Assembly (NCBI GenBank): GCA_030247885.1
Contig: JAPDRO010000010.1
Span: 248,001 to 312,000 of the forward strand
Length of the DNA: 64,000 bases
Direction: 5' to 3'
From: Taxawa tesnikishii (nom. ined.)
Lineage: Eukaryota; Ascomycota; Dothideomycetes; Dothideales
The position numbers and the translations under genes were made by a program. Under the pieces are notes generated by a model that made no database searches, was not told the origin of the DNA, and saw only the letters and a list, made by a program, of their open reading frames with translations. Positions 1-41,382 of this stretch are shown here, piece after piece (within the stretch, counting starts at the first letter, position 1; the number at the start of each line of letters is the position of its first letter).

Positions 1-239
1 CAAGTCCATCGGCCTCAGCGTAGATACCATACAACCACAAGTGCTGGCCTCGTGGTGGTCCTAGTATGTCCAACGTCCTTTTTCAACCCTTGCCCATGAA
101 GCGCCTTTGCGAGTGAAGGTTGCTGCCTCTAGCGTGCACTCCGACTGCCCTCCAGTTTGCTGTTGTCCTTGAGTATCTGCAGACAGCTGCGCAACGGATG
201 ATGGTAGGGAAGACAGCGAACTGCTTGATGATCGCCGTA

Positions 240-1770
240 CTATGCTTCCTGCCGCGTCAGACTGTCGTTCGGGGGACGCTCCGCCCTAAGCGGGCTCCGG
301 AACCCTTGCTCCTGCGGTGGCTTTGACTGCGTTGCCGTGTCCCGACTCGTCAGGTCATCGTCCGACTCTGCATCGTCCGACTCGCGGGGCATGGCGTAGT
401 CTACAGCAGCTCTGTAGCTAGATTTCGATGGAGAAGACGGCTGTCCCTTGCGAAGACTGGCTTTGTTCAGATCTTCGCCGCTGTCAATTTCCTCACTGTT
501 CGAGCTCTCCTCAGAAGTCAGTCCAGCAAGTGTATTTGCCCATTTCTGCATGTCCGTCACGTCAACGAATTTGTCCATGTATGGGTCCTTCTTAAGGGTC
601 GCTAGCACGGCTTCGGTAAGGCGGCTCTGGATTAGCTCCTGACGTTCTGAACATTGGGTTGACCAGGTCCTCCACTTCTCCTCGAACAGTTCTGCCGCCT
701 CGTTCGAGTCGAAGTCCGGATATATCGGCTCGCCAGTCTTATCGGATCTGCACGTTCCAGTAGCCCAGCTGTTGAGGAATGACTGCAAAGTAGCACAGAC
801 CGACACTATAAGGAAGGGCGACAGTGGTCGAAATAACTTAGCCGTTAACGGATGGACACCAGCTCGGCCTGCTCCAAAGTATGCGGACCGGATGCTCTCC
901 ATTATCAAATGGCTAGTATACCTCTTGGCCTACGTTCGAATCAGCTTCTAGTATCTGGCGAAGAACAACGTTGGTACACTTTTCCCGTCCTTGCACTCGA
1001 ACAAGGCGTTCGGTATATGCTTACGGGCCCATTTCTTCCTGAATGCGACGCTGCGATGCCGCGAGCAGACTAGCCTTTCGAGTGTGGCCTTGATTGAAGC
1101 GGTAGCAGTGCTCCTACTCTTGCGAACGGCTTCGCGAAGCTAGTGTACGCTTAGTATCATACCTGTTCCGTCGGTCTTCCAATGTCTTACCTTAAATCTC
1201 ATGCCTTCATGCATGGTTGCTGGAATGCTCTGTAGAGGGTTGGTCTTTAGCTTTTCGTCTCGGACTCCCGCCCACTCGCCCTCGGCCATCTCGAGAAGTG
1301 TAGCTTCCGCTTGTGAGGTAGGAAACATTGACTGTTCGCAGTGTCCGTTGTGCGTGCGAGCGATGAGTCGTATACGCACTTCCGAGTATATCTCGCGCTG
1401 GTCTAGTGGCATCACCCATCCTTTCCCTATGTTCACGCTGTAGTGTCCTGGTTGGTCTAGTATACTGCTGTCTTGCGAGCCACTCGCTCGGCCGCCGGAT
1501 TGTAAAGAACCAATGTCGATTGCGTCGACGCCGGCGCCTGTTATGCCTACGTCTCGTTTTCTTTTTCGACTAGAAGGCATTTCCTTGGAGAACGTAAGTA
1601 ATAGCGCTGCCGCCGATAGCATACCTACTTACCTCCTCCCATACTGCCCCGGAAAGACTAGGGACATACGACCGGCCTCCGCTTCTGTTAGTACTATCAG
1701 GCGTAATGTCAGCGTACGTTCGTTGAACACGTAGTCGCTTGTTATGTGTCCTGAACTCTCCTGGTGCCAT
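240..1770 (-). CDS. Uncharacterised multi-exon gene, probable passenger of the Plavaka-type element
   Basis: I do not recognise this protein. The first exon (1633-1770) encodes 46 residues starting MAPGEF. A 49-nt intron (1584-1632, GTAAGT donor, AAG acceptor) joins in phase to a second exon that begins with a basic stretch (SSRKRKR) and runs to about 1160. A 33-nt intron near 1127-1160, with an ACTAAG branch-like motif, could lead into the open frame from about 1125 to 950, which is rich in Arg and Lys. The last reading frame (240-908) is acidic and Ser-rich at its C-terminus. Exon joins downstream of 1160 are my inference. The gene lies on the strand opposite the helicase and transposase. 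CGACTCG and CGAGTCG heptamers occur in its coding sequence, as in the rest of the block. Broken or pseudogenised status cannot be excluded. Confidence 0.45.
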
Positions 1771-2304
1771 GCTACTAAGATATCGTACTCGTATACTAGC
1801 GGGATAGTAGCATATAGACGTAGAGTACTGCTTGCTCTCTTGGTGTCAGTCTGGAGTGATGGCAGTGGATGTAGTATAGGCTTTCATCGAACTAGGCGCG
1901 TACGGATTTGAGTTGAGTCTGGTGGTTTCAGCGTGCTAACCGACGTAAGGGAACGTCATCTTTCGCAAGGAATCGTTAGCTAACGCGATATCGTGCAAAG
2001 TCTGGTTCGCGGGATGTAGCCGAGCTGACTAGCGTTCATTTGGAGTAAGCCTGGCGGCTAACCCGCTATGCCATTGTTCGATATGCGAAGTAGTTCTCCC
2101 TGCTAGCAGGAAGCTAAGCATAGATGTCGGGGCCTAAGTCTTTGGCAATGTCCGACGATCCTAGCCCTCTAGGCACTAGGGTGTTTAACACCGCCGATCG
2201 TGTCAACGTTGATGCAAGCCGAGCTTCGAGACACTATATAGCGAGTAGTGTTACTTGACGGAAGAGACCCGACAGACTTGTGTCTGATTAGTTGGCTGTC
2301 TGCT

Positions 2305-2425
2305 CAGTCGACTCGGAAATCGGTGGGGACCCCGCCCCTGTCCGACTCGGAACGTGAATCGTGGAGATCGCCGACTCGGGACGCGAGTCGCCCATATCGT
2401 CGAATCGCCGCGGACGATTCGGCAA
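2305..2425. repeat. CGANTCG palindrome cluster 1 (intergenic)
   Basis: The 7-bp palindrome CGANTCG occurs at 2309, 2343, 2372, 2384, 2401 and 2415, with one more at 2641. It lies upstream of the 240-1770 gene, between it and the next minus-strand open frames. Chance expectation is about one per 4 kb. Such clusters fit subterminal or promoter-proximal sites bound by a CACTA-superfamily transposase; that role is inferred. Confidence 0.6.
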
Positions 2426-2622
2426 TCTCTCACGAGTTTGCGCATCCACAGCGGGCGGCGACGCACCGAAGGACCTAAGTCTCTTGCCTTTGATCCCTCA
2501 CCCGCATGCTTTGCTGTATCCTCTAAGCCTCGACGGCGCTCCCAGTCAGAACAGTGTACTTTCATGCAAACCATTCGCATAGACACTCTCTTCTTCGTAC
2601 AATACCCCCTCGTCTATGCGCT

Positions 2623-2976
2623 TCACTTAATCACTCGACGCGACTCGGTGGGGACGGGCAGTAGTTTGACAATATGCCTGCGTAGCGGCCTCGCGCAGTT
2701 ACGGATCCTGTCGTTGTCCAATCTATTAGGATTGATCTTCTTGTCGGTTCTAGTATTCGGTTTGTCTAGATGGTCTTGCACGCGTCTCTTGAATCGTGCC
2801 TCTTGCAGCCCGGCGAGCTCCTCCGTGTAGGCTTCTCTAATGCCGTCTCCGTTAACGGTCCATGGCTTCTTTGCGGCCGTCTCTAGTTGGAATGCGCGAC
2901 GGCTTGCTTGGTGTTGCTGCTCGAGAATAAGCGAGAGGAAGGCGTCGACGAGCCGATGACTTTTATAGACCGGCTA
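2623..2976 (-). CDS. Open frame without a start codon, likely a downstream exon
   Basis: On the minus strand a continuous frame of more than 110 codons runs from a TAG-closed boundary near 2976 to a TGA at 2623-2625. It has no ATG near its 5' end, so it is either a 3' exon of the adjacent gene that ends at 2991 or a separate exon. The product is highly charged and helix-prone (runs such as LILEQQHQASRRAFQ and KRRVQDHLDKP). I see no family match. It lies between two cargo-type genes of the Plavaka block and shares their strand. Confidence 0.35.
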
Positions 2977-2990
2977 GATATATAGGCCGT

Positions 2991-3917
2991 TCATGGCTCT
3001 GGACATTCTGACGCAGTCGGTGCTAGTGGCATAATGAAGAAAGTCAGAGGTTGCCCCGAGAGCGTCTTGTGTGCTAAGACTGCCTTCCATTGCCGCTCGT
3101 TGTCTATCGAAGGGCGGTCTCCAATCTGGTCATTGTCCCATCCGAGGAGATCGGCCTCGCGTTGGAAACCATGGTCGGATTCTAGTATCGATATGAACAT
3201 GTCCCAGTCTAGATCTTCTATCGTAATCGCGCTCGAAGAAGTACTACACGGCCAACCGCGCGCTAGTTCGCAAGGTCGACAAAGCGCTTTAAAAGTGCCG
3301 TCCCTTCGCACAACCGACATCATTCCTTGCCACGTCTCATGTTTTGTGGTTGCCATGGAGGTTTGGGGAGCACTGGCGGATAGATGGGTGTCGTCTAGCA
3401 AGCAGTGTTTCGGCTGCGCATCTTTCTCTCCGTTTACGCACTCTGTATCCTTGCTCTTAGGGAGTCCTTTGCGCCGTCGTCGGAAGTTCGTGCTTACACG
3501 GTATACCAGGTCCCGAAAGAGTGCTTGACCCTTCTCCGTCCGCATGATCTCAACCGTATCTGGGAAGCGACTTTGGGTCCACTTAGACGCAAAGATGCAC
3601 GTAAACATCTCCTTGTGTATGGCGTTCTTTTTGGAAATCGAGCGGAATGTCTGCCCAAGCAAGCCTCTTTGTGTAATCTCGTATTCTACGCGTGCATAGA
3701 ATTCTTTGTAGCCATCGTCATCTAGACCGAGACCCTCTCGAAGACTACCGTATCTAGGTTGACTGTCTGGCGACTGAGTAGATGCAGGTTTGGTGATTCG
3801 TGTTGTTGTTGTCGTCCGAGTCGTCTTACTTGGGGTAGCCGGTCTGTCCGAGTCGGTGCCATGTTGACTGACGGCAGAAGATCGCAGTTGTGTCTTGTTG
3901 AAAAACGAGGTGGACAT
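2991..3917 (-). CDS. Uncharacterised 308-aa protein of the Plavaka block
   Basis: A single open frame encodes 308 residues starting MSTSFFNKTQ. The first 50 residues are Ser/Thr-rich and probably disordered. The centre is basic (FRRRRKGLPKSK). Four cysteines are present, with a CRPC pair within FKALCRPCELARGWPC, which may bind metal, although no known finger pattern is clear. I do not recognise a family. It points away from the helicase gene, and the 1.6-kb gap between them holds a second CGANTCG cluster, so a shared bidirectional control region is plausible. CGAGTCG also appears twice in its 5' coding end (3833, 3851). Confidence 0.5.
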   Translation of the reverse strand: MSTSFFNKTQLRSSAVSQHGTDSDRPATPSKTTRTTTTTRITKPASTQSPDSQPRYGSLREGLGLDDDGYKEFYARVEYEITQRGLLGQTFRSISKKNAIHKEMFTCIFASKWTQSRFPDTVEIMRTEKGQALFRDLVYRVSTNFRRRRKGLPKSKDTECVNGEKDAQPKHCLLDDTHLSASAPQTSMATTKHETWQGMMSVVRRDGTFKALCRPCELARGWPCSTSSSAITIEDLDWDMFISILESDHGFQREADLLGWDNDQIGDRPSIDNERQWKAVLAHKTLSGQPLTFFIMPLAPTASECPEP

Positions 3918-5548
3918 TGGTACGGTATAGTTGGATCTGTTGATCGTACGGCCTCGTTATGCCGATATATTGTGTAAGGTGTAGTAGCTTGATGCGAAGG
4001 GTTGCCGTCATGTATACTGCTATATTCGGCCTAGATCTTAATATTCTAGGTTATTGTCGTGCGTATATGTCCTTATACTCATTACCTCGAGTTAATAGGA
4101 CCACGCTTACGTCGTGCACGGGTTAACCGAGGTCGCTTGTATATATACCCTTGGAAAAGCGACGTCGGCTCATCGCGCTTCTCCTTGTCATCGAAAAGAA
4201 CACTCTATAAATGCAATGACCTCGTTTAATGTTGGCTTCGACAATGGCAATGTTTGGGCGTATGGTTCGTACAATCACTCTCCTCTGCTTGTGTGCAACA
4301 TCTCTATCGCTAGATGCGCTAAACCGCAGTAGATCCGAACGGCCGGCTGTTCACATCAACCATAGCTTGTATACTTACTTCCGTTGTCGTCGTATGCGAG
4401 CTTGTAACACCAATAATCCTCGCCAGGCTAGGCCTACCTCTAGGATCGATGGCCGAGGTATGGGGACTTCTTATTAGCCGGGGACGTTCTCTCCGTTAAG
4501 GCGACTGCAATGGCGCGTCAATGGTCTAGTTTGGACGGCCGCATGGCGAGATGTTGTCTTCAGTTTGAGGAAGCATCTCCATGTAGGCATATGCGCCTAA
4601 TACACCGATCAGAACGTTTGTTGCTGTTTCCCTATCTCTTTGTCACAAAGCCTACATGTTAGCTAACAGCGTGATTGTGGTGGCACATCATCCATATCGG
4701 TCTCTTTGTGCTCGCCACGTCATGTATCGGGTTGCATAGTTTGGCGCGTTCTCAGTGCAGTAGACGGCGCATGTTTAGTGGATTGAGTCGACGAGTCGGT
4801 GCCACTACGTGTGAATCGCCTTTCGAATCGCCTTTGTCCCTTGCATTCATGTGCTGCCACGTGCAGACCCGCCTCACATGATACGAGTGCATAGGGCAGA
4901 TAGGAAAGCGATTCGCGAGCAACGAGTCGAATAGCGATTCGTTTCTGCTACTGGCCTTTCAACCTACCAGTGAACCGAGTTTGCTCTATGTTTGCATACA
5001 GGTACCCTATCAGTCCGATTGCACTCATCGTTTATCTCATTCACAAATACACACACATACACACACTAATAATCTTTCTTACGTTTACTGCCTCTTTCAT
5101 CCACTACTACACAGAGCTTTCCTCCTTTGCTACGTTCTTCTCCCAATCACAAATCACTGCGTCTAGCTGTATCGGTTACGTGCAGCACTAGTAATACAGC
5201 AACTCGTCACTCTGCGCATCAACTGTACGTTTCTCGGCGATCTACCAACTGTCTCGCCTTACACTCCGTCCAAACCTCCTCCGACTGTCGCTTGCGCGTC
5301 ACCTTACGCGCCGCAAGGCTTCTACCAAAGCTCTTCATCTACGCCACCATCGGGAAACACTGCCGTTCTAAGATCCTTCACTCAGTTAGTTCAGCTACAC
5401 ACTCAGTACTCGCGTACGTTGTTCGCTCTTTAGGCTATCAATCTGGGACTGACAACCGACATCTCTAGATCACTTACTCCACCAACCCTCTCATCCATCG
5501 GCCCTACCGCTTCGACTGCTCCTTCCTCTGTTCCATGTTCTAGTCATC
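3918..5548. other. Divergent intergenic region with CGANTCG cluster 2
   Basis: No gene is visible in this 1.6-kb gap. It separates a minus-strand gene from the plus-strand helicase gene. It contains CGANTCG at 4792, 4824, 4909, 4923 and 4935, a CA-rich stretch near 5044-5070, and pyrimidine-rich sequence from about 5080 to 5540 that could be the helicase promoter and leader. An 11-bp match to a repeat at 13625 (ACCACGCTTAC, near 4100) may be chance. Confidence 0.5.
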
Positions 5549-8500
5549 ATGGCGGCCCATTCCGGAGTGTTCAACGTATCCGACGACACAACCTGGACGG
5601 AAGATGGCATCATAACATGGTTGCGTACCAAAACAGGCGAGAGGTCCGACTCGTTCTTCAGGACGTTCTTCAACTGGAACGCAGATGACTTCCGCGCCGC
5701 GGCAACCACTACTATAGACAAATGCAGGAGTGCCGGTATGGACATGGAAGCCCCCGCCTCGGTGACAAGAAACTCTGGATCGAGCAACGCTTTAAAGCCG
5801 AGAGCTTGATGATAAATGACCCCGCCGACACATTCAAATATCACGGCGGAACGCAACCGCAATGGTTTACTGAGAGAGTGCTTCGTGGTCCAAACCGCAC
5901 CGCGGAAGTTCCGGTAGACGTGAAAGGGAGCGTACTCCAGGCGTGGATTGCAAAGGCATGGGGAGCCCGGAAGAAAGGAAACAAAGGTTCAACACCTGCT
6001 CGCTCTACGCTACGGTCCCAGACTCGGTCGAGGAGCCCTACAGCAACATCGTCGTCTAGCCACCGCAACCGCAGCCCTCTCAGGTCACGTTTGTCGAGTT
6101 CAAGCCTTGGAGCCGATGACTTCGCAAACCTCAACTTCGGTCCGTTACGCCCCGGTAATGAAGACGCGATGGATGTTGACGACCCACCGTTCGTGGTGCA
6201 CACGCTGCATGAAATGCCTCTCATCATTGTAGTTATCGAGCAAACCGGGCCGCATCTCCGCATTGACCGGAATGCCTGTTATGGTCAGACTGGTGCGTTC
6301 CTTACACCAGATGGAGCTGCTCAGTGGGACACGTTTACTGAGTTTCTGGGCACGTCGGGCCATGAGGATTGGCCAGTGTTTTGGTTCAATCCATGGGCTA
6401 GACATACACACTCTCGAGTCGATAACAGGTTCAAGCTTAGTACTGCAGTGATGCAACTCTGGAAATTCTGGCGTGGAAGGAGCAGTGCTATCCAGCTCTT
6501 TCTCGCTCCCAACGAGGACACTGTCCAGCTTGTACCCTACGAAGAGAAAGGTAAAGTCATTACGCTATCCTAAGTGGTACACTACTGACATGTCAACAGT
6601 CAAGACGCGCTTGGCCAACAACGTTCATGATGTGGTCATTCAGACTCCAGAAGAGCAACTCACGGAGGACGATTTGGTCCAACAGCGACTAGCGAATGAG
6701 GACGCTCAGCGGCTCGCGGATGAGGAAGCTCAGCGACTCGCGGATGAGGAAGCCCGGCGACTCGCGGATGAGGAAGCTCAGCGACTCGCGGATGAGGAAG
6801 CTCAGCGACTCGCGGATGAGGAAGCTCAGCGACTCGCGGATGAGGAAGCTCAGCGATTCGCCGATGAGGAAGCTCAGCGCGGCGATAAAGAACGCGATGT
6901 TGAAGAGACCGGATGGCCGTGGATGATTCCTGCCACATCAGACGACGACATTGAGGTTGCCGAAAGCCCTACCGCACCCTCTATCGATCTCAGTAGATAC
7001 AACTACTCGAAGAATGAGGCACTGTCGTCCGCGAAGCTGCGCCCTGAGATACGAGAGGGTTCAACCGAAGAAGCCTTAGCGAAGGTAACAGATCTGAAAC
7101 AAATCGACGTCGATACCTGGAACGCTGTATGCAGGTTTTTCGGCCATGACCCCACTAACACACATCCAAGATCCGGCGTGTTCTTCCCGGGATGGAAGCG
7201 CAGTGCCAAGCTTCTGTCATACCAATTCTATACGGTTGGATGGCTTCTAAAGAGGCTACTGCAGGGATCTGAATGCGTCTTCATTGGACACTCTATGGGC
7301 ATGGGCAAGACAGCTATCGTCCTTGCACTCTTGAAGCTTCTAGCGAAGGTAGCCAAAGATGGAGCGGCAGGTGTCGCGCATCCATTGGATTCTAGCTTCC
7401 ATCTGAATCCTAACGCGCTCACTCAAGTCGATGGACCATTACGACGCACCCAATCAGGACCTATGCTAGTGATTACTCCTACCTACCTGTCATCCAACTG
7501 GGTCAACGAATGGCGCAAGTTTTCTACAGTCATCTCAGAGAAATCTACTGGAGTCAAGATGATTCTGATGTTACCAGTCGGCCTGTTGACTAACAGGGCT
7601 ATGGAATCCGAATTCAAGGATTGCTACAGGCTTGACGATGTGGTCAGGCCTGAAGACCTGCCGCCTCGAGAGCAGCTAGTAGCCACTTACGGATCAGAGG
7701 AAGATGTACCCACAACGATCACAGCCAAAATTCTGCTGGAACCTAATGCGTCACATAAACCTGAGCCGTGGCAATCGGAATGGTGTGTGCTTACCACCCA
7801 GGCAATTGCGGTATCAAAACTCGCGGTTAAAGTACCAGGAGACTCAAACGTCCACGGAGAAATCTACGCCCGTTGGAGTGTCGTCGCATTCGACGAGTAC
7901 CATACGAACCGCAACCCTAATTCGTCTGTTTGGTCCAAGTTGGCGTACCTTCCTGGCGATCCGAATTTCATTTTCATAAGCGGAACTCCGTTTCCGCCGA
8001 CGCTTGCTTTGGTCCCTCCTCTTCTCGCTGCTCACGCTCGCTACTATGAACCAAAGTCCGGAACAAAGTTCATAACCATCGCGGCGAGCAAATGGACCCC
8101 GAGCAACGCACGCACTACGAATCTACCGTTTCGACCGAACCTTGCCCAAGCAAAGCAACGCGCTTTGTCTCGAACCGGCTTCATACCAATCGCTCAAAGT
8201 GCAGCGATTATCGACAAGGCTTGGAACAAGAAGAACAAACTCTCCGATGCGATCGCCAAATCGGCACAGGATAAAGAGGACGAAGAGGACGAAGAGGGAC
8301 GCAACAGTGATGACGAGCAGGATGCCCCCGGATAGTGTCCGCGTCGAGCTGACACCAGAGTTGCAACGTGCGATACAAGTCGTAGCGAAGGGCGCTGAAA
8401 AGTACATGATCCGCTTCCCTACGGAGCTTTGGTGGCAGGTCGATCCAAATTCCGAGGGCCAACCAGCACTAGACTTCCCACCGCATGCCACATGGGATCA

Positions 8501-9298
8501 GTATTTTGACATCGACGAGAAGTTCCGTCGCGACGGCCTAGGGGACGAATGGTTGCAATCGGTAAAGGAAGTCTGGACGAAGACCAACAAACACTCTGAA
8601 GCTCAGACGGAGTGGCTGTTCTTCCAGATTATTCGCAAATTTCGCATCTGGACGGTATTCCCTTGTCTGTACACTCTGATGGAGAACGACGATGAGATGA
8701 AGGCCGAGCTAAACAAAATGGACCGTGACGACGCGGCAAGGATTCTAAAGGGCGCACGGAATTCTACGTTATGGAGCCACATGCACGAGATCGATCAACT
8801 CCCTCCGATGATGGCATTGAAGGACATGATCGCGCAAATACGTGGTCAACTCAACTTCTTCAAGAGGCCACGAAAGATCATCATTGCGGCTTTTGTACCA
8901 TTCAACGTTATGGTGGTCTATATGGTAAGTAGTTACTGCTCACACGTACTAACAAACCGCTAATACTATCGCAGTACCTGCTTTGGCTAGTAGGGCGGCC
9001 AAACTACACGGCAATTAACGATGAGAAGGACATCGCACTTGTCGCTTCATGGAACAGTCAAACCGAGCGTGACGAGCAGATTGCTAACTTCAAGACTACG
9101 ACCCCTAGCTACAAAGAACAGCCTGGCATCATGGTCGCCTCAGCGACACAGATCGCGGCGGGCCTGTCCCTCGACCCAGCGGACGTGGTGATTATCGTCG
9201 ATCCCGAGTTTGACATGGCAAAGGTTGAGCAGGTTATGGCTAGAGTGAGACGTATGAGGCTCACGCAAAGGCTCCCTACACTGAAGGGTTTCGTCTGA
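5549..9298 (+). CDS. SNF2-like superfamily 2 helicase, companion of Plavaka transposase
   Basis: Three exons are readable: 5549-6550, 6600-8934 and 8975-9298. Introns of 49 and 40 nt (GTAAAG..CAACAG, GTAAGT..CGCAG) join in phase. Motif I is GMGKTA at about 7300, motif II is DEYH at 7891-7902, and motif III is SGTPF at about 7978. The C-terminal lobe has the motif V region ATQIAAGLSL and motif VI-like QVMARVRRMRLTQ at about 9230-9270. This order is that of SWI2/SNF2-type DNA translocases. A tandem QRLADEEA repeat lies before the helicase core. Two frame breaks fall in C5 runs, near 5753 and 8322, so this copy is either mutated or misassembled there. DNA remodelling at transposon ends is a plausible role, but it is inferred from position. 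Confidence 0.7.
6680..6885 (+). repeat. 24-bp coding tandem repeat (QRLADEEA) in helicase
   Basis: Seven full 24-bp units run from 6704 to 6871, flanked by degenerate partial units. They encode the octad QRLADEEA, a probable charged coiled coil or linker. Six of the units contain CGACTCG or CGATTCG at 24-bp spacing, the same palindrome found in the intergenic clusters. Confidence 0.9.
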
Positions 9299-9495
9299 TA
9301 TGCAGTGCTCCATGGTGTAACCTTCAGGATTGGATGTGTAAGCGCCAGAATTCAGCCACTCATATCCGCGATCAGGTACACCGTGTGGCCGGACAGACTG
9401 GCCATGGTGGCAATTGAACAGGTACCTGGAGCGCAGATGGTACTTGGAAGAAGACATTGCGGAATAGCACGGAGGATCCCTTATGTCTAGCGACA

Positions 9496-9810
9496 CGATT
9501 CGCTAGGTCTCATGCTTGGTTTTGCTTCTTTCTCTGCGATTATGAAGGTAGATAGACACAATGTCATCAGCTTTCTCATGCCCTTTACTCCGTCCGCGAC
9601 ATGTTGTAGTTCTTACTACGAACTATGAGTCGTTCATGATTCGAGAGTCATCAAACGAGTCGCAAGGCGACTCACATACTTGTAGTGTTCCTTTAGGGGT
9701 ATAGGGACAGGACGTGGGAAGAGATAATCCAGGGTAGATCTAGACGCGCCGAATTGCAACACGAATCGCAACACGAATCGGCAAAAGACGAATCGGCGGA
9801 AGGCGAATCG
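9496..9810. repeat. CGANTCG palindrome cluster 3 (between helicase and transposase)
   Basis: CGANTCG occurs at 9496, 9656, 9762, 9774, 9789 and 9804. The last four are spaced 12, 15 and 15 bp. The cluster ends about 100 bp before the first ATG of the transposase gene, so it could act in its promoter or as transposase sites. Confidence 0.6.
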
Positions 9811-9913
9811 GAAGATCTGATCTAATCTAATCGAGCGCCCGGGCGTCTGGGGTTAACCCTCTTCGGCTTATACATATGCGACTTCAACACGATAGTAGAC
9901 ACACACTGCCACC

Positions 9914-12900
9914 ATGGTCCGACCGCATGCCTGCAGTGCATGTGGACGCGTGTGTAAACAATCGTACGGCCTACGGATGCACATCGCTGCGTGCAGGGCA
10001 CGCCATTCGTATAACCCCGACACGCAACTGTTAGCATGGAGGATACTACTCGTCCACTGACAACCGATATATCAACCGACATCACGGACGGAGAAACGGC
10101 TGCACCACAAATTGAAGATACACCGCAGCTACAGTTCAATCATATCAACGAAGGCTATAGCACACAAAACGTAACCGGCGCAACCGCAGACGATAGTGAG
10201 TTCGAAGAACTACTAGACGTTTTTCAAGACGTCGCCTACAACCCACCAACCGCGGAAGAGGAGGATGACCCATATGGAGACATACTACAGAGTTCTGCAC
10301 TAGAGGACGAACGAGACAGCATTGGAACCGGCGGCTCTATAGCTTACGGTGGCAAGGGTAGACTGTCGTCGTCTACCTCGCGTATAGAAGGTGAAACGAG
10401 GACGTTTGAAGAAGTTACAGGGAGAGCGGCAGGTAGAGGAGTAAACAGGTAAGTGGTATTGCATATCGACACCGTTTCTCTAGGTTCTGACACAAACACA
10501 TGTGTACGCCTCCCGTATTTGCGGACCCGGAACGACTCGCCGGCTTTACTAGCGATGCGGATGTTGCGTTCGCGAACTGGCTGCACCAGGAAAACATATC
10601 CAAAAACGCAATCACTCGCCTGATGCGTGAACCAAGGCTACATGCGATCACGCAACACTTTAGCTGGCGTTCGGCGGCCGAACTCGAAGAGAAGATAGCT
10701 GCAATGGGAAGAGGAAGAAACGTCGCACAATGGAACATCCGGCCTTTTACGCTACCTTCGACGAACACATCACAGGGGACCAAAAGATACTACTTTCGAT
10801 ACAGACGAGTCGAAGACGCGATTCGGTTCTTCCTAGGGCATCCTGGTTTTAGTAACGACCTCCAATTCTCTCCTTACCGGATATGGACAGGCGATGGAAA
10901 CGCGCGCAGGGTATACAACGAGATGGCTTCGGCTGATTGGTGGTGGGACACTCAAGAGCAGCTTGGCCGTGATGATGCCACAATTATACCGTTGATCGTA
11001 TCCACCGACAAGACACAGGTGACGAACCATCAGGGAGACCAATCAGCTCATCCAGTGTACCTCACTATAGGCAACCTCATAGCGGATGTACGGAACTCTA
11101 ACCAAAGGCCTGGATCTATGCTTCTTGCTTTGATCCCGATAGTAAAAGAGAAGGACGCTACTACTCGAGCTCGTGTATTCCATGATTGTCTCAAGGTCCT
11201 GTTCGACCCTATTAAGGAGATCCTACACAATGGTGGCAGAGAGCTACCGTGCAGTGACGGATGGACGCGTCAGTGCTTCCCCATTCTCGCTGCAATGACT
11301 CTAGACTACGAAGAGCAAGCCCGGGTAACAGGGGTTAAGAGTGGTCGACAATGTACCATATGCAGCATACGTCCAGGTGATCGAGAGGACCTCGAAGCGT
11401 GGGCTCCCTGGAGGACACATGAGGAGACTCAACAGCAAATCAGTTACCAACGGATGAACCCTACCGACCGCGACCGAGAGGACTGGGTACACGATATCGA
11501 CTCGTTCGCTTTCGGCCATCCATGGGTGAACATACACGCAACAATGATGGTTGATATCCTACACCAGCTGCTTAAGGGCGTGCTTGATCACGTACGGCAA
11601 TGGTTGATTGCCCTACTAGAGGACTTGCTTCCTAAAAGGCACGGCAAAATATACAAGGCGGCAATCGAAGAAGCTAGACAGCGCGGAATACGATTTCGAG
11701 GCAAGACACTACCAAAGGACTTCGTCGCAGATCTCATCGACAGGCGTTTTGCGGCAGTCTCGCCGTACCGCGGCTTACGTGTATTCGAGCAGTTATCAAG
11801 TAGAAGACAGATGACAGGGAAAGAGCTTAAGAGCATCCTACGACAGCTGCTGCCAGTATTCACCCCATTCTTGGAGGAGGCTGGAGCTACGGAGGCAATC
11901 CTATTTATACGCGCGGTCGTCGACTTTGTCTTACTCTCGCTCTATCATAGTCATGACGACGACACCCTCCGCTACATGACGTTGGCGCTGTTTCGTATGA
12001 ACCAACACAAGGAGATATTCCGAAGGTATCGGCCTAATACAACAGAAGACACGGAAGGCCATTTCAACTTCCCTAAATGGCATGTAATGACACACTATAC
12101 GGACATGATCAGACGACTCGGATCAGCGCCAGGACTCGATACAGGCCACGGTGAGCATAACCACGTAACGTTCGTCAAGCAGGGGTACAAGCGTACCAAC
12201 AGGAAGGAGGGCTGGGAGGATCAGCTTACCATGTGGAACGATCGTAGTCTAAGCATGGCTGCCGAATTCGACATCGGACCGTACCTACGCAACCTTACTG
12301 CAGCGGAGAAGATAGAAGAAGCAGATGAACCGGTAAGGCCAACCGAGGCAGTCAATGTGGAGCGTTATTTTGGGTGGCCGCCGACGGCGCGACCAAAACC
12401 ACACGCAGCGCGGGAGAAATGGCGGCAAGTCAACGAAGTGCAAATGCTCCTTGGGCCCACAGCCGGTGTCGTCTTTCGACAAGCGTTGGCCGTGTTCGTG
12501 CGCGAATCGAGATCACCGGAAGCCGGTGCCACCCAAGCCAGCATATACGATCCTGATCGGTTGGAGGAAGACGACTCGTGGATATTGCCGTATTGGGTAC
12601 AGTTTCACCCCTCATTGCGGTGTAGAAAAGCTACTGGTAAAGATCCTGATGATCCCGATAGCACTGAACATGATATAGTCAGGTGCGCGCCGAACTGGCA
12701 AAACATCAATGGCAACGCAAGACATGATTGGATATGGGTACAGGAGTACGCAACGGTCACCTCCGAGTCGTGCGACGATTCGGCAAACACTATATCCCAA
12801 GTAGCGTTCGACGGACGTCTGCCAGCGCGCTTGCAGCTCATCGTTACTATAGAAGACAGGCAGCGCGACAAAAATGGCAACATGACCACGCGGAGATACA

Positions 12901-13244
12901 CAGGTGCGTTGGTCGATCTATATGCACCTAAGAACCCACACGGCCGCGCAGATGCCGTACATGGGATGACTGTCATCAAGCCGATGCCACTACCACCTCG
13001 GAGAGGCTTACGACGCTTGGGTGGACGAAGAATATATCCCTTGACCGGTATTTACCATAGTATCCACGTAGTATCTACGTCAGCACCATGGAACGACAAG
13101 AGCGGTGAAATGTATATTAACAATACTGCCGATTGGGAGACGTACAATTTCCTATGGAACGCGGACTGGGAGGAGGAGGCAGCTCGAATAGCCGTCGACT
13201 CGAGGAACGCCCGCATAAGAGCGGCGAAGGTTGTGACACACTAA
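9914..13244 (+). CDS. Plavaka-type transposase (CACTA-related) with C2H2 leader
   Basis: The leader frame at 9914 encodes one C2H2 finger (CSACGRVC..HIAAC-type spacing), as is usual at the start of Plavaka proteins. An acidic segment follows (10036-10448). A 35-nt intron (10449-10483, GTAAGT..CTAG) leads to the main exon, whose open frame starts with ATG at 10500 and encodes 914 residues. The core motif STDKTQVT at about 11000-11020, followed by PVYLTIGNL, is the diagnostic Plavaka block. Further in are a CTICSIRPGDR segment and HGEHNHV. The frame slips in a C4 run near 10015 between the finger and the acidic segment, and a TGA lies in frame just after the intron, so this copy may be inactive or may use the 10500 start. 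Plavaka enzymes move cut-and-paste elements of the CACTA superfamily. Confidence 0.8.
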
Positions 13245-13285
13245 AGAGCTAAACACTACTCATAAGCAAGATGACCTTAGTATCT

Positions 13286-13492
13286 GCCGAATCGTTAACT
13301 CGCTCGCCAAACGAATCGCAAGGGTAGCGACTCGCGCGGTCTTATATACGGCTCGTATATCAGACGACTCGCGTACAGTAGGGAGATAGTAGGCTATAGT
13401 TAGGTTAGCAGCCGATTCGGTCAACGATTCGGTCAACGATTCGTAGACTAGGCGATGAATAGGTCTATAGGAAGAGAGTTATCGATTCGCTT
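13286..13492. repeat. CGANTCG palindrome cluster 4 (3' of transposase)
   Basis: Eight copies lie at 13288, 13312, 13328, 13365, 13413, 13425, 13437 and 13483. Three are exactly 12 bp apart. This is the densest cluster and the last one. It lies between the transposase stop and AT-rich DNA, the position expected for the subterminal region of the element. Confidence 0.65.
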
Positions 13493-13544
13493 TGCACAAA
13501 GTTATTATAACAATGTTTCTCGTAGTATAGTATAGTCTCGCATA

Positions 13545-13640
13545 ACGTGGTATATATTTGTATAACGTGGTAAGCGTGGTAAGCGTGGTATACCTGGTAT
13601 ATACGGTACGATTATTCGTACCACGCTTACCACTAATACC
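13545..13640. repeat. Direct and inverted GTGGTA-type repeats, candidate element terminus
   Basis: Short direct repeats (ATAACGTGGTA twice, then AGCGTGGTA twice) are followed by an inverted copy, TACCACGCTTACC, near 13625. The set could form a hairpin. It lies just outside the last CGANTCG cluster and before the AT-rich block, so it may mark the right end of the Plavaka-type element. A matching left end is not visible. Confidence 0.4.
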
Positions 13641-13654
13641 GCGATCCGGGATTT

Positions 13655-13975
13655 CGTGACGTAGTTATATTCTTTCTTTTCCTTCTTTTATTTCTTACGC
13701 TTTTCCTTAGTAAGTTTATTATTATATAACTTAGTAGCTTTAATTAATTCCTTTATATTAGTTTTCTTTTTTCTTTAACTTTTTATTCTTTTCTTATAAG
13801 TTTTATACGTACCTTAACTTCTTAAAATAATTAAGGAATTTATATTATAAAAGGACTTTAGTACTTATAATATTATAATAAAGTTAGAAACTTACTTTAC
13901 TTTTCTTATTACTTCTTAATAATAAGAGTATTAAAGAGACTCTTATTTTTAGCTCTTAAAAGACTATTTTATATA
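13655..13975. other. AT-rich block, no gene
   Basis: Very AT-rich, TpA-rich sequence without open frames, resembling RIP-degraded DNA. The same kind of sequence resumes after the two transposons at 17677, so both elements inserted into one AT-rich tract. Confidence 0.6.
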
Positions 13976-15822
13976 ACGTGTTTTATCACCGAGCGGTCCA
14001 CCATTACCGAGCGGTCCGCCCTCACCAACATCGCGACTGTTATAGACTATTACAACAATGCCTTCACAACGCAACGCGCAATTAACCTACAACGAAGGCA
14101 CACTATACCTTGCTATCAAGGCTACCCAAGCAACCCCTCCTAATAGCCAAAGACACGCGTCTAAGGCATTCGACGTCCCCGAACAACCCTAAAACGACGA
14201 CGCGACGGAAAGCTCGCACGACGCGACTGTGAGCCCAACTCAAAGAAGCTACAGAAGACAGAGGAGGAGGCGATAGTGGCACGCATACTCGAGCTAGACT
14301 CGCGAGGAATAGGCGCTACAAGGACTATGGTAGAAGAAATGGCTAATGATCTGCTAGCTGCGCGTGGTCAAGAGCCTGTTGGCAAGTGCTGGGTAGACAG
14401 GTTCAAGACGCGTACCAAGGAGGTCAAGCTTCGACGTAGCCGTCCATACGATCGTCAACGGGCTCTGAACGAAGACGCACGCGTTATAACGCCCTGGTTC
14501 GAGCTGGTGAGGAAGACAAAGGAGAAGTACGGCATCTTGGACGAAGATACACACAACTTTGATGAGACAGGCTTCATGATAGGCATGATTAACGCTCAAA
14601 TGGTCTTCACAGGCTCTGAGAAACGAAGCAATCCTAAGAAGATACAGCCAGGCAGCCGGGAGTGGGTTACAATCATCCAGGGCATCTGCGCTGCTGGGTG
14701 GGCTATCCCACCCTTCGTCATCTTCGGCGGCAAGGTCCTTATATCGAGCTGGTACGCAGACCTGCCTCGCGACTGGGTACTTGAGACCAGCGCCAACGGC
14801 TGGACGACGAATGAGCTTGCTCTAAAGTGGTTAAAGCACTTTGACGCGCATACAAAGGCGCGTCAAGTAGGTGTATACCGCCTGCTGATTGTGGACGGCC
14901 ACGAGAGCCATAGTAGTCACGACTTTTACAACTACTGTGAAGAACAGAAGACTGTTGTTCTTTGCATGCCCTCACACTCGTCGCACCTGTTGCAGCCGCT
15001 TGACGTGGGCTGTTTTGCCCCTTGAAGCGGGCATACAACGCGGAGATTGACAGCTGGTCACGGTACTCCACTACGCAAGTCAAGAAAGAGGCCTTCCTAC
15101 CAGCCTTTCGCATCGCTTTCGACAAGGCGATTACAAAGGACAATATCCAGGCAAGCTTTAGAGGCGCTGGATTGGTTCCCCATAACCCAGAGCGAGTGCT
15201 GTCGAAGCTTGACGTGGTGCTTCGCACGCTGACACCCGCACTATCAGAGGTCACCCCGTGGGAGTCTAAAACACCAGCCAATCTGAAGGAGATGGAGGCG
15301 CAAACAACGCTAGTCCGCGAGCGCATGCGACTGCATAGGGATTCGCCTATCTCGCCTCTTCTGCAGGCTATGGATTCGCTTGCCAAAGGCATGGCTATTA
15401 TGGGTCATAGATCAGAGTTGCAGACAAGGGAAATCGCAGGTCTTCGGAAGTCGATTGAGGCGTTGACAGAGCAGCGCAGTCGCAAAAGAAAGTATATTCG
15501 GACAGAGGAGAGTCTCACAGTAGGTGACGTACAGGATTTGATGGCTAATAAGGACGATGGCGGTAACGAGGGTACTAAACAGCCTGCGAAGAGGGTGCGC
15601 ACGCAGAGGCACTGCGGACATTGCGGCAAGACTGGCCACAACACGCGCACCTGCACTGCAGAAATAGTAGATCCAGACGATAGCGATGCTTCTGAATAGT
15701 ACCGTAGGCTAGAGTATTGTTTTGTACAGTGTTGTAGTGCGGAGGTAATGGTCTGTAATAGTCGTGATGTTGGTGAGGGCGGACCGCTCGGTGATGGTGG
15801 ACCGCTCGGTGATAAAACACGT
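13976..15822 (+). mobile_element. Pogo/Fot1-like transposon, family A copy 1 (1847 bp)
   Basis: Inverted repeats begin ACGTGTTTTATCACCGAG at both ends and contain a doubled CACCGAGCGG-type motif. A TA target duplication lies at 13974-13975 and 15823-15824. The first 54 bases of the ends differ at one position. The single gene inside is a DDE_1 (CENP-B/pogo) transposase. It is diverged from the two almost identical copies at 15829 and 41383. Confidence 0.92.
14057..15699 (+). pseudogene. Pogo-type transposase of copy 1, frame-broken
   Basis: The ATG at 14057 opens the psq-like N-terminal helix region (MPSQRNAQLTYNEG), which closes after about 44 codons at a C4 run. The main frame (14276-15025) carries the Tc5-type HTH and catalytic Asp motifs NFDETGF, LIVDGHESH and LQPLDVGCF. 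It stops at CCT-TGA (15020-15025). The -1 frame continues with KRAYNAEIDSW to 15699, encoding a coiled coil and a C-terminal CCHC knuckle (CGHCGKTGHNTRTC). The same -1 junction is found in the other two copies. Confidence 0.8.
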
Positions 15823-15910
15823 TAATTAACGTAGTTCACCACCGAGCGGCCAACCACCACCGAGTGGCCCGCCTCACCAACCTTTGCCTATTACATGTCT
15901 ATTGCCTACA

Positions 15911-16879
15911 ATGCCACCACCACGTAACGCGCAGAAGACCTACAACGAAGGCACACTGTCCCTTGCTATCCAGGCTACCCAAGCCAAGACACCAGATACT
16001 ACGAGACACGCAAGCAGAGCGTTTGACGTCCCCCGAACGACGCTAAGACGACGACGCGACGGAACCCTCTCACGACGCGATACTCAGCCCAACTGCAGGA
16101 ACCTTAGTAGCCTAGAAGAGGACGCAGTTGTGCGACGCATACTTGAGCTAGATGCGCGAGGGATAGGCGCTACAAGGACTATGGTCGGAGAAATGGCCAA
16201 TGATCTACGCGCCGCGCGTGGGAAAGGGCCCGTTGGCAAGAACTGGGTAGACAGGTTCAAGACGCGTATCGACGATATCAAGCTTCGACGCAGCCGTCCA
16301 TACGATCGTCAGCGAGCCTTGAACGAAGATGCACGCGTTATAGCGCCCTGGTTCAAGCTTGTAGAGGACACAAAGGCGAAGTACGGCATCCTGGATGAAG
16401 ACACACACAACTTTGATGAGACAGGCTTCATGATGGGCGTGATAAACGCTCATATGGTCTTCACAGGCACTGAGAAGCGGAACAATCCAAAGAAGATACA
16501 GCCGGGCAACCGGGAGTGGGTTACAATCATCCAGGGCATCTGCGCTAGTGGGTGGGCTATCCCACCCTTTATCATCTTCGGCGGCAAGGTCCTCATATCA
16601 AGCTGGTACCCAGGCCTGCCTCGTGATTGGGTTATCGAGACTAGCCCTAACGGCTGGACGTCAAATGAGCTTGCTATCAGGTGGTTAAAGCACTTTGACG
16701 CGCATACAAAGGGGCGTACTATAGGAATGTATCGTCTACTGATTGTGGACGGCCATGAGAGCCACAATAGTCACAGTTTCCACAAGTACTGTGAGGAACA
16801 GAAGATTGTTGTTCTCTGCATGCCTCCACACTCATCGCACCTGTTGCAGCCGCTTGACGTGGGCTGTTTTGCCCCCTGA
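15911..16879 (+). CDS. Pogo-type transposase ORF1 (322 aa), copy 2
   Basis: The ATG at 15911 (MPPPRNAQKTYNEG) opens a continuous frame with a psq-type HTH, a Tc5/CENP-B HTH ending GKNWVDRF, and the DDE_1 core. The three catalytic Asp positions are in NFDETGFMMG, LLIVDGHESH and LQPLDVGCF. The frame ends at GCC-CCC-TGA, directly after the third catalytic motif, so ORF1 alone holds the full triad. Of the three family A copies, only this one keeps the N-terminal frame open, through a C5 run at about 16029 where the others have C4. It is the best candidate for an active source. Confidence 0.85.
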   Translation: MPPPRNAQKTYNEGTLSLAIQATQAKTPDTTRHASRAFDVPRTTLRRRRDGTLSRRDTQPNCRNLSSLEEDAVVRRILELDARGIGATRTMVGEMANDLRAARGKGPVGKNWVDRFKTRIDDIKLRRSRPYDRQRALNEDARVIAPWFKLVEDTKAKYGILDEDTHNFDETGFMMGVINAHMVFTGTEKRNNPKKIQPGNREWVTIIQGICASGWAIPPFIIFGGKVLISSWYPGLPRDWVIETSPNGWTSNELAIRWLKHFDAHTKGRTIGMYRLLIVDGHESHNSHSFHKYCEEQKIVVLCMPPHSSHLLQPLDVGCFAP

Positions 16880-37860: not shown

Positions 37861-40085
37861 GAAAAAGCACTACATCGTCTTATATACATTCAGATATGGT
37901 TATCCAGTCGAACTACAATTCACTAGAGGGCAACCAGGAATCCCAAAGGTTACAGAAAGCGTTACTTTTTAGCGTTGAATGTGACAAGGCGATCTGCAAC
38001 CACTGCCTCAACTATCATCCACGAGTTATCTGAAGCAAGTCGTGTCCTGCAACCTATATATGCCTCAAGCATCTCCCGCCCTCCTGCTAAAATGCGAACT
38101 TCTAACAGACTAACAAATCATTCCTGCTTCTCTTCCCCGACCTGGCCGGCGAATTGCTGTTCTCGGACTTCATCTCCATCAAGAGCCCGCTAGCCTGCTT
38201 TATCCGGCCGATGTTCTCCTCGCCTTGCAGTCCCTTAGTAGCGTTACTGTCAACATTGCTATGCCTCGGTACGGAAGAAAAAGGATGAGATATATTCTCT
38301 CTTAGAGGATGGTCTTCCCCAGTCTTAACGGCACCAATATCAGAGGAATCGTGAGCCTGTGAGAGCGAGAAATCACCGGAATCGAAGTACTTTCTTCTCT
38401 GAGTCGATGATCGGATCAGCTAGATCTACATCGTTAAAGACAGAGGAGAGTGTGTAGATACCTCTAGCTGGTGGTTGAGAAGGTTTCCTCGGCGTGGGAC
38501 CTTTCCGTAGAGGTGTAAGAGACGCTCATTCCTCTCGGTTTCGGTAAGGGAATTCGCCTCAGAATAAGCATTCATTCGTCTCTTGCATTAGAGAGCATGG
38601 GAGTAATATGCTTACTTTGGAATTGCGCTCTTTCTGAACGGAATCCATATTGAGGTAGGTGTGCGTTGTATTGAGTGCGAAGGAGGTAAGGTCAGGCGAG
38701 CAAGGGATAGCTACGTTATACTATGGATTCTGTCTGCCTATCCGACACTGTACTGTGTCACAGCTTGTCTGTAGAGCCACAAGATGCCCACGATGACAGC
38801 CTAGGTAGCCCGAGCGAACAACTAACCGCATACGCCGTTTCAGACGCATAGGCGTACGGGCCTGGGTGTTTTGACAGTCCGCTTCCCCGTAGTTTGCGTA
38901 AGGTGACAATCCTCCCAGTAGTTGCCCTGTTGCCATCGAGAAGCCGATGCCTTGAGCACCTTCTGCGATCGGCCGCGGAGCTTTGGCCGACAAGCCATGT
39001 CGGCAGGCCTCCCTAGTTTTCGCGTGCGCCACTCTCCATCCTCATCGATCCGACAGCGATCGGCCTTAACGCCGCCGCTAGTTCAATCCGGCGCAAAGGC
39101 TCCCAAGCTCGTCGGGGCATCAACCGACCTCCGCGATATTGCTCTGCAAAAGTTATCTATGCACCTCCTCGGTCATGATGTGCACCTACGGCCTTTTAGG
39201 CCCATCAGAACAGCGCGGATTAGAGCGATGTGCTTCCACCCCCGATCTGCACTACACATTTTCGGATCCTTCGATCCATAGCTAGCCCCATTATTCACCA
39301 TCCCGTCAACTTTGCTAACATCGGCACTTCTTCCGGCTCCGCCGACACAAGTTGCAATTCACCATACAGCTTTGGTACTCTCGTCATCATCACCATTCTG
39401 ACTTGCTCATCGCTGCCGCTTTCTATCCCGTTCGTGGCCTTGCTCGACCATCCGCCGTGTTTCCTTGCATACTAATAGTCCTGCTCTACCATACGGGCAA
39501 TCAGCCTCATCGCATCCTTTTCTAGCCATTTAACCCCTCTGAGGCCATGCCAATTCACATTTACCACGCCCCTTGTTGCCTGTCCGGCTGCTTCGTGCAA
39601 AGCTCATCTTCGCGCTCCCGGGAGACTATGCACGCAACACCTTCGCACATCTGCACTGCTACGGGCGTACTCTTTCCACACAGCACATACCCTAGAGCAT
39701 AGTTAAACTCATCCCTGCCGGCAGGGCGTACTTGTGCCTCTCTACGCTTGTGCATCGGTCGATCCCACCTTGCCCGAGTCGATCGGCTTCGGACCTGGAA
39801 CCGTAGTCTCGGCGTCTTGATTCGCATGATGCCCGATTTCTGCGCCTTCAGGCATGCACTACTCTTTGCGTCTCTATTGGGTTTGTACACACTGCGACGT
39901 GCTGTCGCCGCTCCAACTTCTGACCTGCGAACCTGTTCAAGATCTAATGGTCACCAACCAAACGTCTTCATGAGCCATCTGGAACAAGTTCTGGAAATGC
40001 TGGGCTTGTCTTAATTTATGGACATCCAAGAGAGAGACCTGTGCGCTTAAGCTCCCACACCGAGCCTTTGACGAGGCCTAACGAC
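37861..40085. other. Long gap, no gene seen
   Basis: Only short frames without recognisable motifs. No repeat unit or RNA gene could be supported by eye. Confidence 0.35.
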
Positions 40086-40310
40086 CCTAAAGCACGGAGA
40101 CTACTAATCATGGACGGCCATAGCAGCCACATAACCGCGAACGTGATCGATCACTGCGTGGAATGCAATCGACTTGCTCATCCTGCCGCCTCATTGCTCG
40201 CATGTGCTGCAGCCGCTTGATGTTAGTGGGCTTGCGCCGCTGAAGCGCGCGCTAGCTTCGAAGACCGACGCCGCTTTACCACTCAACACAGGCCGAACAT
40301 CGCGCGTAGA
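40086..40310 (+). mobile_element. Pogo-like DDE fragment
   Basis: RRLLIMDGHSSHITANVIDHC is the second catalytic block. After a frame change, LQPLDV and GLAPLKRAL give the third. Here the GCG-CCG-CTG-AAG codons run through in one frame, unlike the family A elements, where one base fewer causes a stop. Only about 75 codons survive, followed by AT-rich DNA. Confidence 0.65.
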
Positions 40311-40379
40311 ATAGACTGAGATGTATATCTACCCAAGGGCTAGGGCTCCTATTACTAACAGTGTTCTTGTTAGACGGAG

Positions 40380-41382
40380 ACATGCCGGTCTAATTCCACT
40401 AAGGCGATCAATGCTTAGGGTTATTTTCAAGCTCTTTATAGCCGATTAAAGTCTTTATATAGCTACCGAAACTAATACGTAGGTTATTATATTCTAGCAT
40501 AAAGTTGCAATTTAGGTAGAGTTTAACTAACTTTCCCCTATAGAAACTATCTCCTAGTAAGACTCCTTATAGTTAATAAAATCTACGCTTCGTTATAATT
40601 AAGCTTTAACTTAATTAACTTTCCTTTCTATTAACTTAATATAAGTATATCGTAATATATATAAGCGAAAAGCTAAACCTTAATAATAACGTACTAAAAG
40701 TTAATAGTTCGTACTAGGAGTAATTATAAATATAAATTATAATACGCTAGTTAATAAGATTTAGTATAGCTAACTTTAAGTAATTATTATTAAATAAAAG
40801 TCCTTAGCTTTTACGTTAAACTTATAGCTTATATTTAACTAACCTTAGTACTCTTAATATTAATAAATCGAATAGAAAGCTACGTCCCTATTACTATTAT
40901 ATAGCTATAAATAAGCTTTATAAATAGATACTTAGATATAAGATACGTAATTTAAGCTATAAGCGTAATTCTAGAAAGTATAAGTCTTTAAGGTATTTTA
41001 ACTTATAAAACTCCTTATATTTAAAGACTTAGTAATATTATATTTACTACTAAATACTTATAGTAACTAAAGTATTAATAATAACTATTTATTCTTTTAA
41101 CTTATAATATTATATTTATACTTACTTTAAAGTTAAGGGTTAATATACTCTTTTAAGCTAGTACGTTTAGACCTCGTATAACTAGATAATAAGTAATAAA
41201 TAACTAAGTAATAACTAAGTACTTAAAAACTATACTTATAATATAAATATTCTTATAGTTTTAAGTAAGTTATTAAACTATTAAGTTATATTATAAATAT
41301 CTTTACTTTATATATTATAAAATAGTACGTATTTTAAACTAAAGCTAGTAATACGTCTCTACTTAATAAAAGAGTAACTATA
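40380..41382. other. 1-kb AT-rich block, no gene
   Basis: Extremely AT-rich and TpA-rich sequence with no open frames, like RIP-mutated repeats. Pogo copy 3 inserted at its right edge. Confidence 0.6.

Follow-up and report, generated by a model that had tools for sequence, protein, structure and literature searches.

CGANTCG, an exact 7-bp dyad enriched throughout a Plavaka DNA transposon of Taxawa tesnikishii

We analysed a 64,000-nucleotide stretch of contig JAPDRO010000010.1 (positions 248,001 to 312,000; hereafter the window) from the Dothideales fungus Taxawa tesnikishii, whose reported source is desert biological soil crusts. An earlier note on this DNA had described a 7-bp palindrome, CGANTCG, that is enriched across one 13-kb block. 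The block corresponds to the internal part of a complete Plavaka DNA transposon of 14,345 bp (C2:247317-261661, C2 being the contig of the window; window -683 to 13661), which holds 60 CGANTCG where 6–8 are expected. The host genome searched comprises 29.37 Mb.

The transposon and its genes

The element and its genes are arranged as follows (window coordinates; ORF, open reading frame).

1..13661: Plavaka transposon, part within the window; 684 bp more lie upstream of the window; four copies can be aligned over their full length and are unlike beyond it
240..1622, minus strand: gene 1, DUF6532 protein (Pfam PF20149, E 1.7e-9, 38.3 bits against a cut-off of 24, on the inferred splice)
2991..3917, minus strand: ORF2, orphan protein with a putative N-terminal helical domain and a PB1-like C-terminal domain
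5540..9298, plus strand: gene 3, SNF2-type ATPase, several exons with inferred limits (PF00176, E 3.6e-11; PF00271, E 3.5e-7)
9914..13244, plus strand: gene 4, Plavaka transposase (PF18759, E 3.1e-73); the deposited model P0001 begins at 10036
13642..13661, minus strand: right terminal inverted repeat, CGTCACGAAATCCCGGATCG on the minus strand; its perfect left partner is C2:247317-247336, upstream of the window

The terminal inverted repeats are 20 bp long and perfect, a feature of Plavaka membership. A 2-bp target duplication flanks three of four copies (TA, CT and AA), which fits the 2- or 3-bp duplications of Plavaka; at the C30 copy a duplication was looked for and none was seen. The transposase matches the Plavaka domain with 247 bits against a cut-off of 26.3. 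Full-length alignments to the window copy were obtained for copies on C11 (97.5%), C30 (∼ 97%) and C1 (87–88%), all with unlike flanks, and 12 right and 16 left element ends, the window copy included, were found in the genome.

The Pfam families above cut-off in the ORFs of the element are Plavaka, SNF2, Helicase_C and DUF6532. The two introns of the DUF6532 gene (1190-1140 and 977-930) were placed by eye; the second donor is weak and the start codon is uncertain. In ORF2, a conserved basic stretch closes the N-terminal helical domain. The short first exon inferred for the transposase gene is zinc-finger-like, with the zinc finger falling under the Pfam cut-off (E 0.0019). In the window copy, the searched stretches of transposase, ORF2, SNF2 and DUF6532 are free of internal stops; elsewhere, all matches listed contain internal stops, with the exception of one distant 70-residue SNF2 match at C23 (50 of the 62 first-look candidates were scored).

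Two DDE_1 transposases with Tc5-type DNA-binding domains, one of them also Psq-type, adjoin the transposon at window 14276-16879, and a stretch 81% identical to this neighbouring region adjoins the C11 copy (C11:593408-594927).

Abundance, placement and spacing of CGANTCG

By exact count the window holds 55 CGANTCG, 49 in the block 300-13492 and six in the other ∼ 50.8 kb, one of which (35029) is an isolated copy of the kind described earlier. The four intergenic clusters, estimated by hand at about 26 copies, contain exactly 7 + 5 + 6 + 8 = 26, with 23 more elsewhere in the block. The genome-wide count that the earlier note proposed as a check gave 7446 sites in 29.37 Mb (8188 for the reversed control word); this average of 0.254/kb is far below the density of the element and corresponds to ∼ 3.3 sites per 13.2 kb, as against the roughly three per block that had been expected at random. 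The block stops as claimed, the element ending at 13661, but it starts earlier, with 11 sites upstream of the window.

C2:247492-247940 (window -508 to -60): left group of 11 CGANTCG, upstream of the window in the left part of the transposon
2309..2647: group of seven with one 12-bp pair, in the gap separating ORF2 from the DUF6532 gene
4792..4941: group of five with one 12-bp pair, in the gap that separates the divergent ORF2 and SNF2 genes
6734..6860, plus strand: 24-bp coding repeat (RLADEEAQ) in the SNF2 gene, one CGANTCG per unit, six sites
9496..9810: group of six, upstream of the transposase gene, the final four spaced 12, 15 and 15
10533..13202: 10 CGANTCG in the main transposase exon
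13288..13489: right subterminal group of eight, three of them at 12-bp steps
13490..13661: right tip, 172 bp beyond the outermost CGANTCG; the left tip is 175 bp
31222, 35029, 37665, 39775, 49399 and 55130: CGANTCG outside the block

The following statistics rest on the window copy, the one sequence analysed from the family that is little affected by repeat-induced point mutation (RIP). Dinucleotide shuffles of the element (n = 500) give a mean of 6.3 CGANTCG with a maximum of 16, and Markov sequences (n = 200 each) give means of 7.0 at order 2 (maximum 15), 8.3 at order 3 (maximum 17) and 19.7 at order 4 (maximum 34), an order that partly memorises the word. Among all ordered trinucleotide pairs at gaps of 0–15, CGANTCG ranks first (z 18.7); ranks 2–5 (z 7.1–7.6) overlap it, the best unrelated pair has a z of 7.0, and other gapped palindromes reach at most 4.3. 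As the earlier note proposed, the centre base is free while the CGA and TCG halves are exact, which suits recognition by a dimer; the flanks are near random. Words with one mismatch (nine classes within the element) number 67 against 98.8 expected, an expectation that ignores half-sites consumed in exact sites, and we therefore read this as no clear enrichment rather than as proven depletion.

When introns are assigned to the non-coding part, and with some of the exon limits inferred, the non-coding DNA (5367 bp) has 37 sites, a density of 6.9/kb, and the coding DNA (8978 bp) has 23, a density of 2.6/kb. The non-coding sites fall into five groups, leaving none of the five non-coding gaps without a cluster, and each of the four genes found has one upstream. 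Altogether, 41 of the 60 sites are situated outside the two end groups, and 23 of these are coding. Since the tips are defined as free of CGANTCG and the mean density predicts 1.5 sites in them, its absence there says little. They are marked by a second, separate repeat, TACCAC/GTGGTA, which occurs 11 times in both tips together against 0.1 expected from the interior rate and ranks above all other 5- and 6-mers scored in them.

The motif is present in coding DNA via synonymous codon choice. The 10 sites of the main transposase exon compare with 1.29 expected and a maximum of five in 2000 synonymous codon shuffles, and of the 64 gap-1 dyads CGANTCG shows the strongest excess in this exon (z 8.1; next, 2.7). 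Serine after Asp or Glu is encoded by TCG in six of seven cases, other serines in five of 35, a comparison that was made after the fact and overlaps the 10 exon sites. The SNF2 piece with the 24-bp repeat has six sites against 1.20 expected, all within the repeat. Smaller numbers are found in the DUF6532 exon (three against 0.61, P 0.009), ORF2 (two against 0.33, P 0.03) and the second SNF2 piece (one against 0.17, P 0.16), all by synonymous shuffle; the third SNF2 piece (0.00 expected) and the second transposase exon (0.24 expected) have none. Pooled, the seven coding pieces hold 22 sites against 3.84 expected, with a maximum of 11 in 2000 synonymous shuffles. Seven control ORFs, in the window and outside the element, show no excess (two against 2.12 expected). 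Composition or codon bias as the cause was rejected on the basis of the trinucleotide-pair ranking, the shuffles, the Markov models, the synonymous-codon tests and the control ORFs.

The 12-bp phasing noticed earlier is real. The element contains eight CGANTCG pairs at 12 bp and four at 18 bp, and none of 5000 trials that jittered the sites outside the coding repeat by at most 30 bp reached the 12-bp pair count. In the genome as a whole there are 27 pairs at 12 bp, of which 25 are in this family, and 17 at 18 bp, of which 15 are; the reversed-pattern control has two and four, respectively. At both ends of the element three sites follow each other at 12-bp steps. The left array forms an 18-bp lattice over 14 units, eight of which have the exact motif. 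Because the spacers of these eight units, which were picked for having the motif, are 41% alike compared with 26% in shuffled letters, the array probably arose by duplication, after which the spacers drifted and these motifs stayed exact.

A looser genome search (CGAATCG, 5–35 bp, CGANTCG) found 77 forward and 78 reverse pairs, the control giving 14 and 22. Of the listed matches (the first 100 places), many correspond to a 31-bp subtelomeric repeat and the rest are family copies or scattered single pairs, so that loose pairs are not exclusive to the transposon family. The 31-bp stretch contains two CGAATCG 24 bp apart and, among the matches listed, lies ∼ 6.2 kb from many contig ends; this conserved subtelomeric repeat is apparently unrelated to the transposon. 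Examples from the loose-pair search are:

C1:6246-6276, C2:6227-6257, C3:6235-6265 and C3:1023323-1023353: 31-bp subtelomeric repeat

Copies of the family and other Plavaka lineages

The window copy is little affected by RIP, with a (CA+TG)/(AC+GT) ratio of 0.91 in the 5.7-kb locus L015. The three full-length copies differ from it almost only by C>T changes, mostly at CpA and CpG, and the right parts of six copies also differ almost only by C>T (six of eight were used, C24b and C1b giving no alignment since a single strand was compared). The copies at C11:630-636k, C6, C12, C29 and C9 have about one-quarter of their aligned bases changed, nearly all C>T, and thus provide a clean record of RIP; they show two to six other changes per 3.8–4.6 kb, the C12 copy having 1249 C>T and two other changes in 4638 aligned bp. 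Since the differences between copies amount to RIP, the family multiplied recently and was subjected to RIP afterwards; judging from these alignments, the CGANTCG code predates the multiplication.

Of the 60 sites, 55 are kept in the C11 copy, 55 in C30 and 42 in C1, while 54 control CGnnnCG words are kept in 48, 51 and 37 cases, respectively. Protection of CGANTCG from RIP was thus not seen, its losses resembling those of the control words in the three full-length copies, and because the copies differ almost only by RIP-type changes, the comparison shows neither protection nor selection. An origin of the motif as a RIP relic was also rejected, as the window copy is little RIPed and RIP makes TA, which the motif does not contain. 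Elsewhere in the window, one 2-kb bin (40000-42000) has a G+C content of 0.386 compared with 0.46–0.55 in the remaining bins and is possibly a RIPed insertion.

Thirteen distant Plavaka loci of the same genome contain eight CGANTCG against 8.2 expected, a test weakened by the RIP that these loci have undergone; the count leaves out L018, L020, L027, L031, L033, L039 and L043, which overlap or are less RIPed, and L015-L017. A RIP-tolerant form of the motif gave 374 against 353 at the distant loci, compared with 370 against 271 at seven heavily RIPed family loci serving as positive control. With a stricter form, in which at least one CG is kept, the distant loci gave 125 against 99.5 (z 2.5; control form 136 against 121.7, z 1.3), an excess compatible with a faint remnant of the motif.

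The four genes all have homologs in a sister family (C10:462-477k, C18:12-26k and C22:54-68k), ORF2 being 32–33% identical; this family contains 11 CGANTCG in about 46 kb, near the genome mean. Further relatives were found as proteins alone (P0002, P0004, P0005, P0096 and P0097, the last from Meristemomyces frigidus). For the sister family, CTANTAG or another dyad code of its own was considered but found no support, the highest dyad at gaps of 0–8 having a z of 3.8 against Markov-3 sequences; since RIP would erase codes with CA or TG, the missing code is weak evidence. In one distant Plavaka lineage, a 12-bp tandem array (GAYRTC-CTACTA; L032 3520-3777, also L034-L038 and L040-L044) is located ∼ 200 bp past the transposase match, close to a right end similar to the one described here. 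GATATC as a second palindrome code in this lineage was discarded: it is part of the 12-bp tandem repeat, and some of it has probably arisen from GACATC by RIP.

The clusters to be looked for around other Plavaka copies recur in copies of this family, whereas the distant, RIPed lineages have no CGANTCG excess. Within the limits of the RIPed copies, the code is restricted to this family. The proposal of a sequence code shared by one mobile unit is borne out by the defined ends of the element and by 12- and 18-bp pairs nearly confined to the family.

A candidate reader and known systems

We infer that CGANTCG is probably the site of the transposon's own DNA-binding protein, a symmetric dimer that would contact the two exact CGA/TCG halves across a free base. 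The sites crowd into all the non-coding gaps, partly as arrays with 12- or 18-bp steps, and within genes they are sparser yet still favoured, so that bound protein would cover the interior of the element. It would thereby label the element as self and regulate its genes or chromatin. The reader is possibly ORF2, which would be the likeliest candidate with its helical domain, basic end and PB1-like fold, perhaps acting with the SNF2 ATPase. The transposase would be the separate reader of the tips and their TACCAC repeats. With 41 of 60 sites outside the end groups, gene control, self-marking or anti-silencing is more likely than end-pairing alone, and the working mode might be akin to VANC anti-silencing of plant VANDAL transposons, with aspects of TNPA of En/Spm. 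Only tentatively do we extend this to a self-recognition code written over the whole interior via synonymous codons, in which a dimeric PB1-type protein might coat the element with the SNF2 ATPase as effector, and related families might have their own code or none. If true, this would add a new mechanism by which a transposon distinguishes itself from its host, here in a genome defended against repeats by RIP.

The sites might instead be classical subterminal or promoter repeats for transposition, at which the transposase, perhaps via its N-terminal zinc finger, pairs the ends and regulates itself like TNPA. The dense end groups (11 left, eight right), whose outermost sites are 175 and 172 bp away from the element termini and which have three sites at 12-bp steps on either side, fit this role, as do the GAYRTC-CTACTA array near the right end of the distant lineage and the similarity of Plavaka to EnSpm transposases (PMC12730594). 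We nevertheless regard it as unlikely, since end-pairing needs none of the 41 sites beyond the end groups, 23 of them coding, and TACCAC, a different and strongly repeated tip word, suits the role better.

It is improbable that a host transcription or chromatin factor reads CGANTCG and that the element gathered sites for expression or silencing: the word shows no genome-wide excess (7446 copies, the reversed word having 8188), the 12- and 18-bp pairs (25 of 27 and 15 of 17) are almost confined to this family, and other Plavaka families in the host lack an excess. Such a factor would account for the clusters upstream of all four genes found and for the looser pairs in the subtelomeric repeat, and strict short dyads are typical of fungal regulators. 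Very improbable is a word without function, produced by composition, RIP or the spread of tandem repeats, a reading already disfavoured by the analyses above. Lacking CA and TG, the motif would be spared by CpA-directed RIP, and six sites belong to a single coding repeat and several to 12/18-bp tandems; but the window copy is little RIPed (0.91, L015), TA, the product of RIP, is not in the motif, other gapped palindromes stay at z ≤ 4.3, the flanks of most sites are unlike and the motif is carried at synonymous positions.

A transposon-encoded protein reading its own dyad can be compared with several known systems. DNA uptake sequences of Neisseria and Haemophilus are short words that mark self across a genome, coding DNA included, but they serve bacterial DNA uptake, whereas CGANTCG belongs to a single eukaryotic transposon. 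With Plavaka, as described in PMC12730594, the element shares the transposase family (PF18759) and the 2-bp target duplications in three of four copies. Its termini, CGTCACG..CGTGACG, match neither PlavakaA (TGT..ACA) nor PlavakaB (CATCA..TGATG), and the element thus belongs to neither subtype as described there. It differs further in carrying an SNF2 ATPase, a DUF6532 protein and a putative PB1-like protein; no TET/JBP dioxygenase was found in the element ORFs scanned with Pfam, which do not cover every frame.

En/Spm-type CACTA elements, according to PMC2613891, have repeated motifs, 12 bp in En-1, that are bound by an element-encoded protein, and repeats and binders diverge between families. 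Their transposase clade is related to that of Plavaka (PMC12730594), which makes them the closest system by transposase. TNPA repeats are subterminal, however, while CGANTCG is interior-wide with 41 of 60 sites outside the end groups, and TACCAC fits the TNPA pattern instead; no TNPA homolog was identified in the element.

The VANC21 motif YAGTATTAY, according to PMC5735166 and PMC10398659, occurs in VANDAL non-coding regions, often in tandem, and differs between related families. The likeness lies in a family-specific short motif clustered in the element's own non-coding DNA (here 37 sites in 5367 bp). The VANC motif is described there for non-coding regions, whereas CGANTCG, a dyad whose centre is free, also extends into coding DNA through the choice of synonymous codons and accompanies a Plavaka transposase; Pfam scans of the element ORFs gave no VANC homolog, VANC sequences not having been compared directly. 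By analogy, we take VANC of VANDAL as the closest working model and En/Spm with TNPA as the closest relative by transposase. That transposon proteins read their own element by short motifs is already known in plants from VANC and TNPA; what would be new here is a fungal case, with an exact 7-bp dyad that extends into coding DNA by synonymous choice. The proposal is directly testable, as the site is fully specified and the candidate proteins number four.
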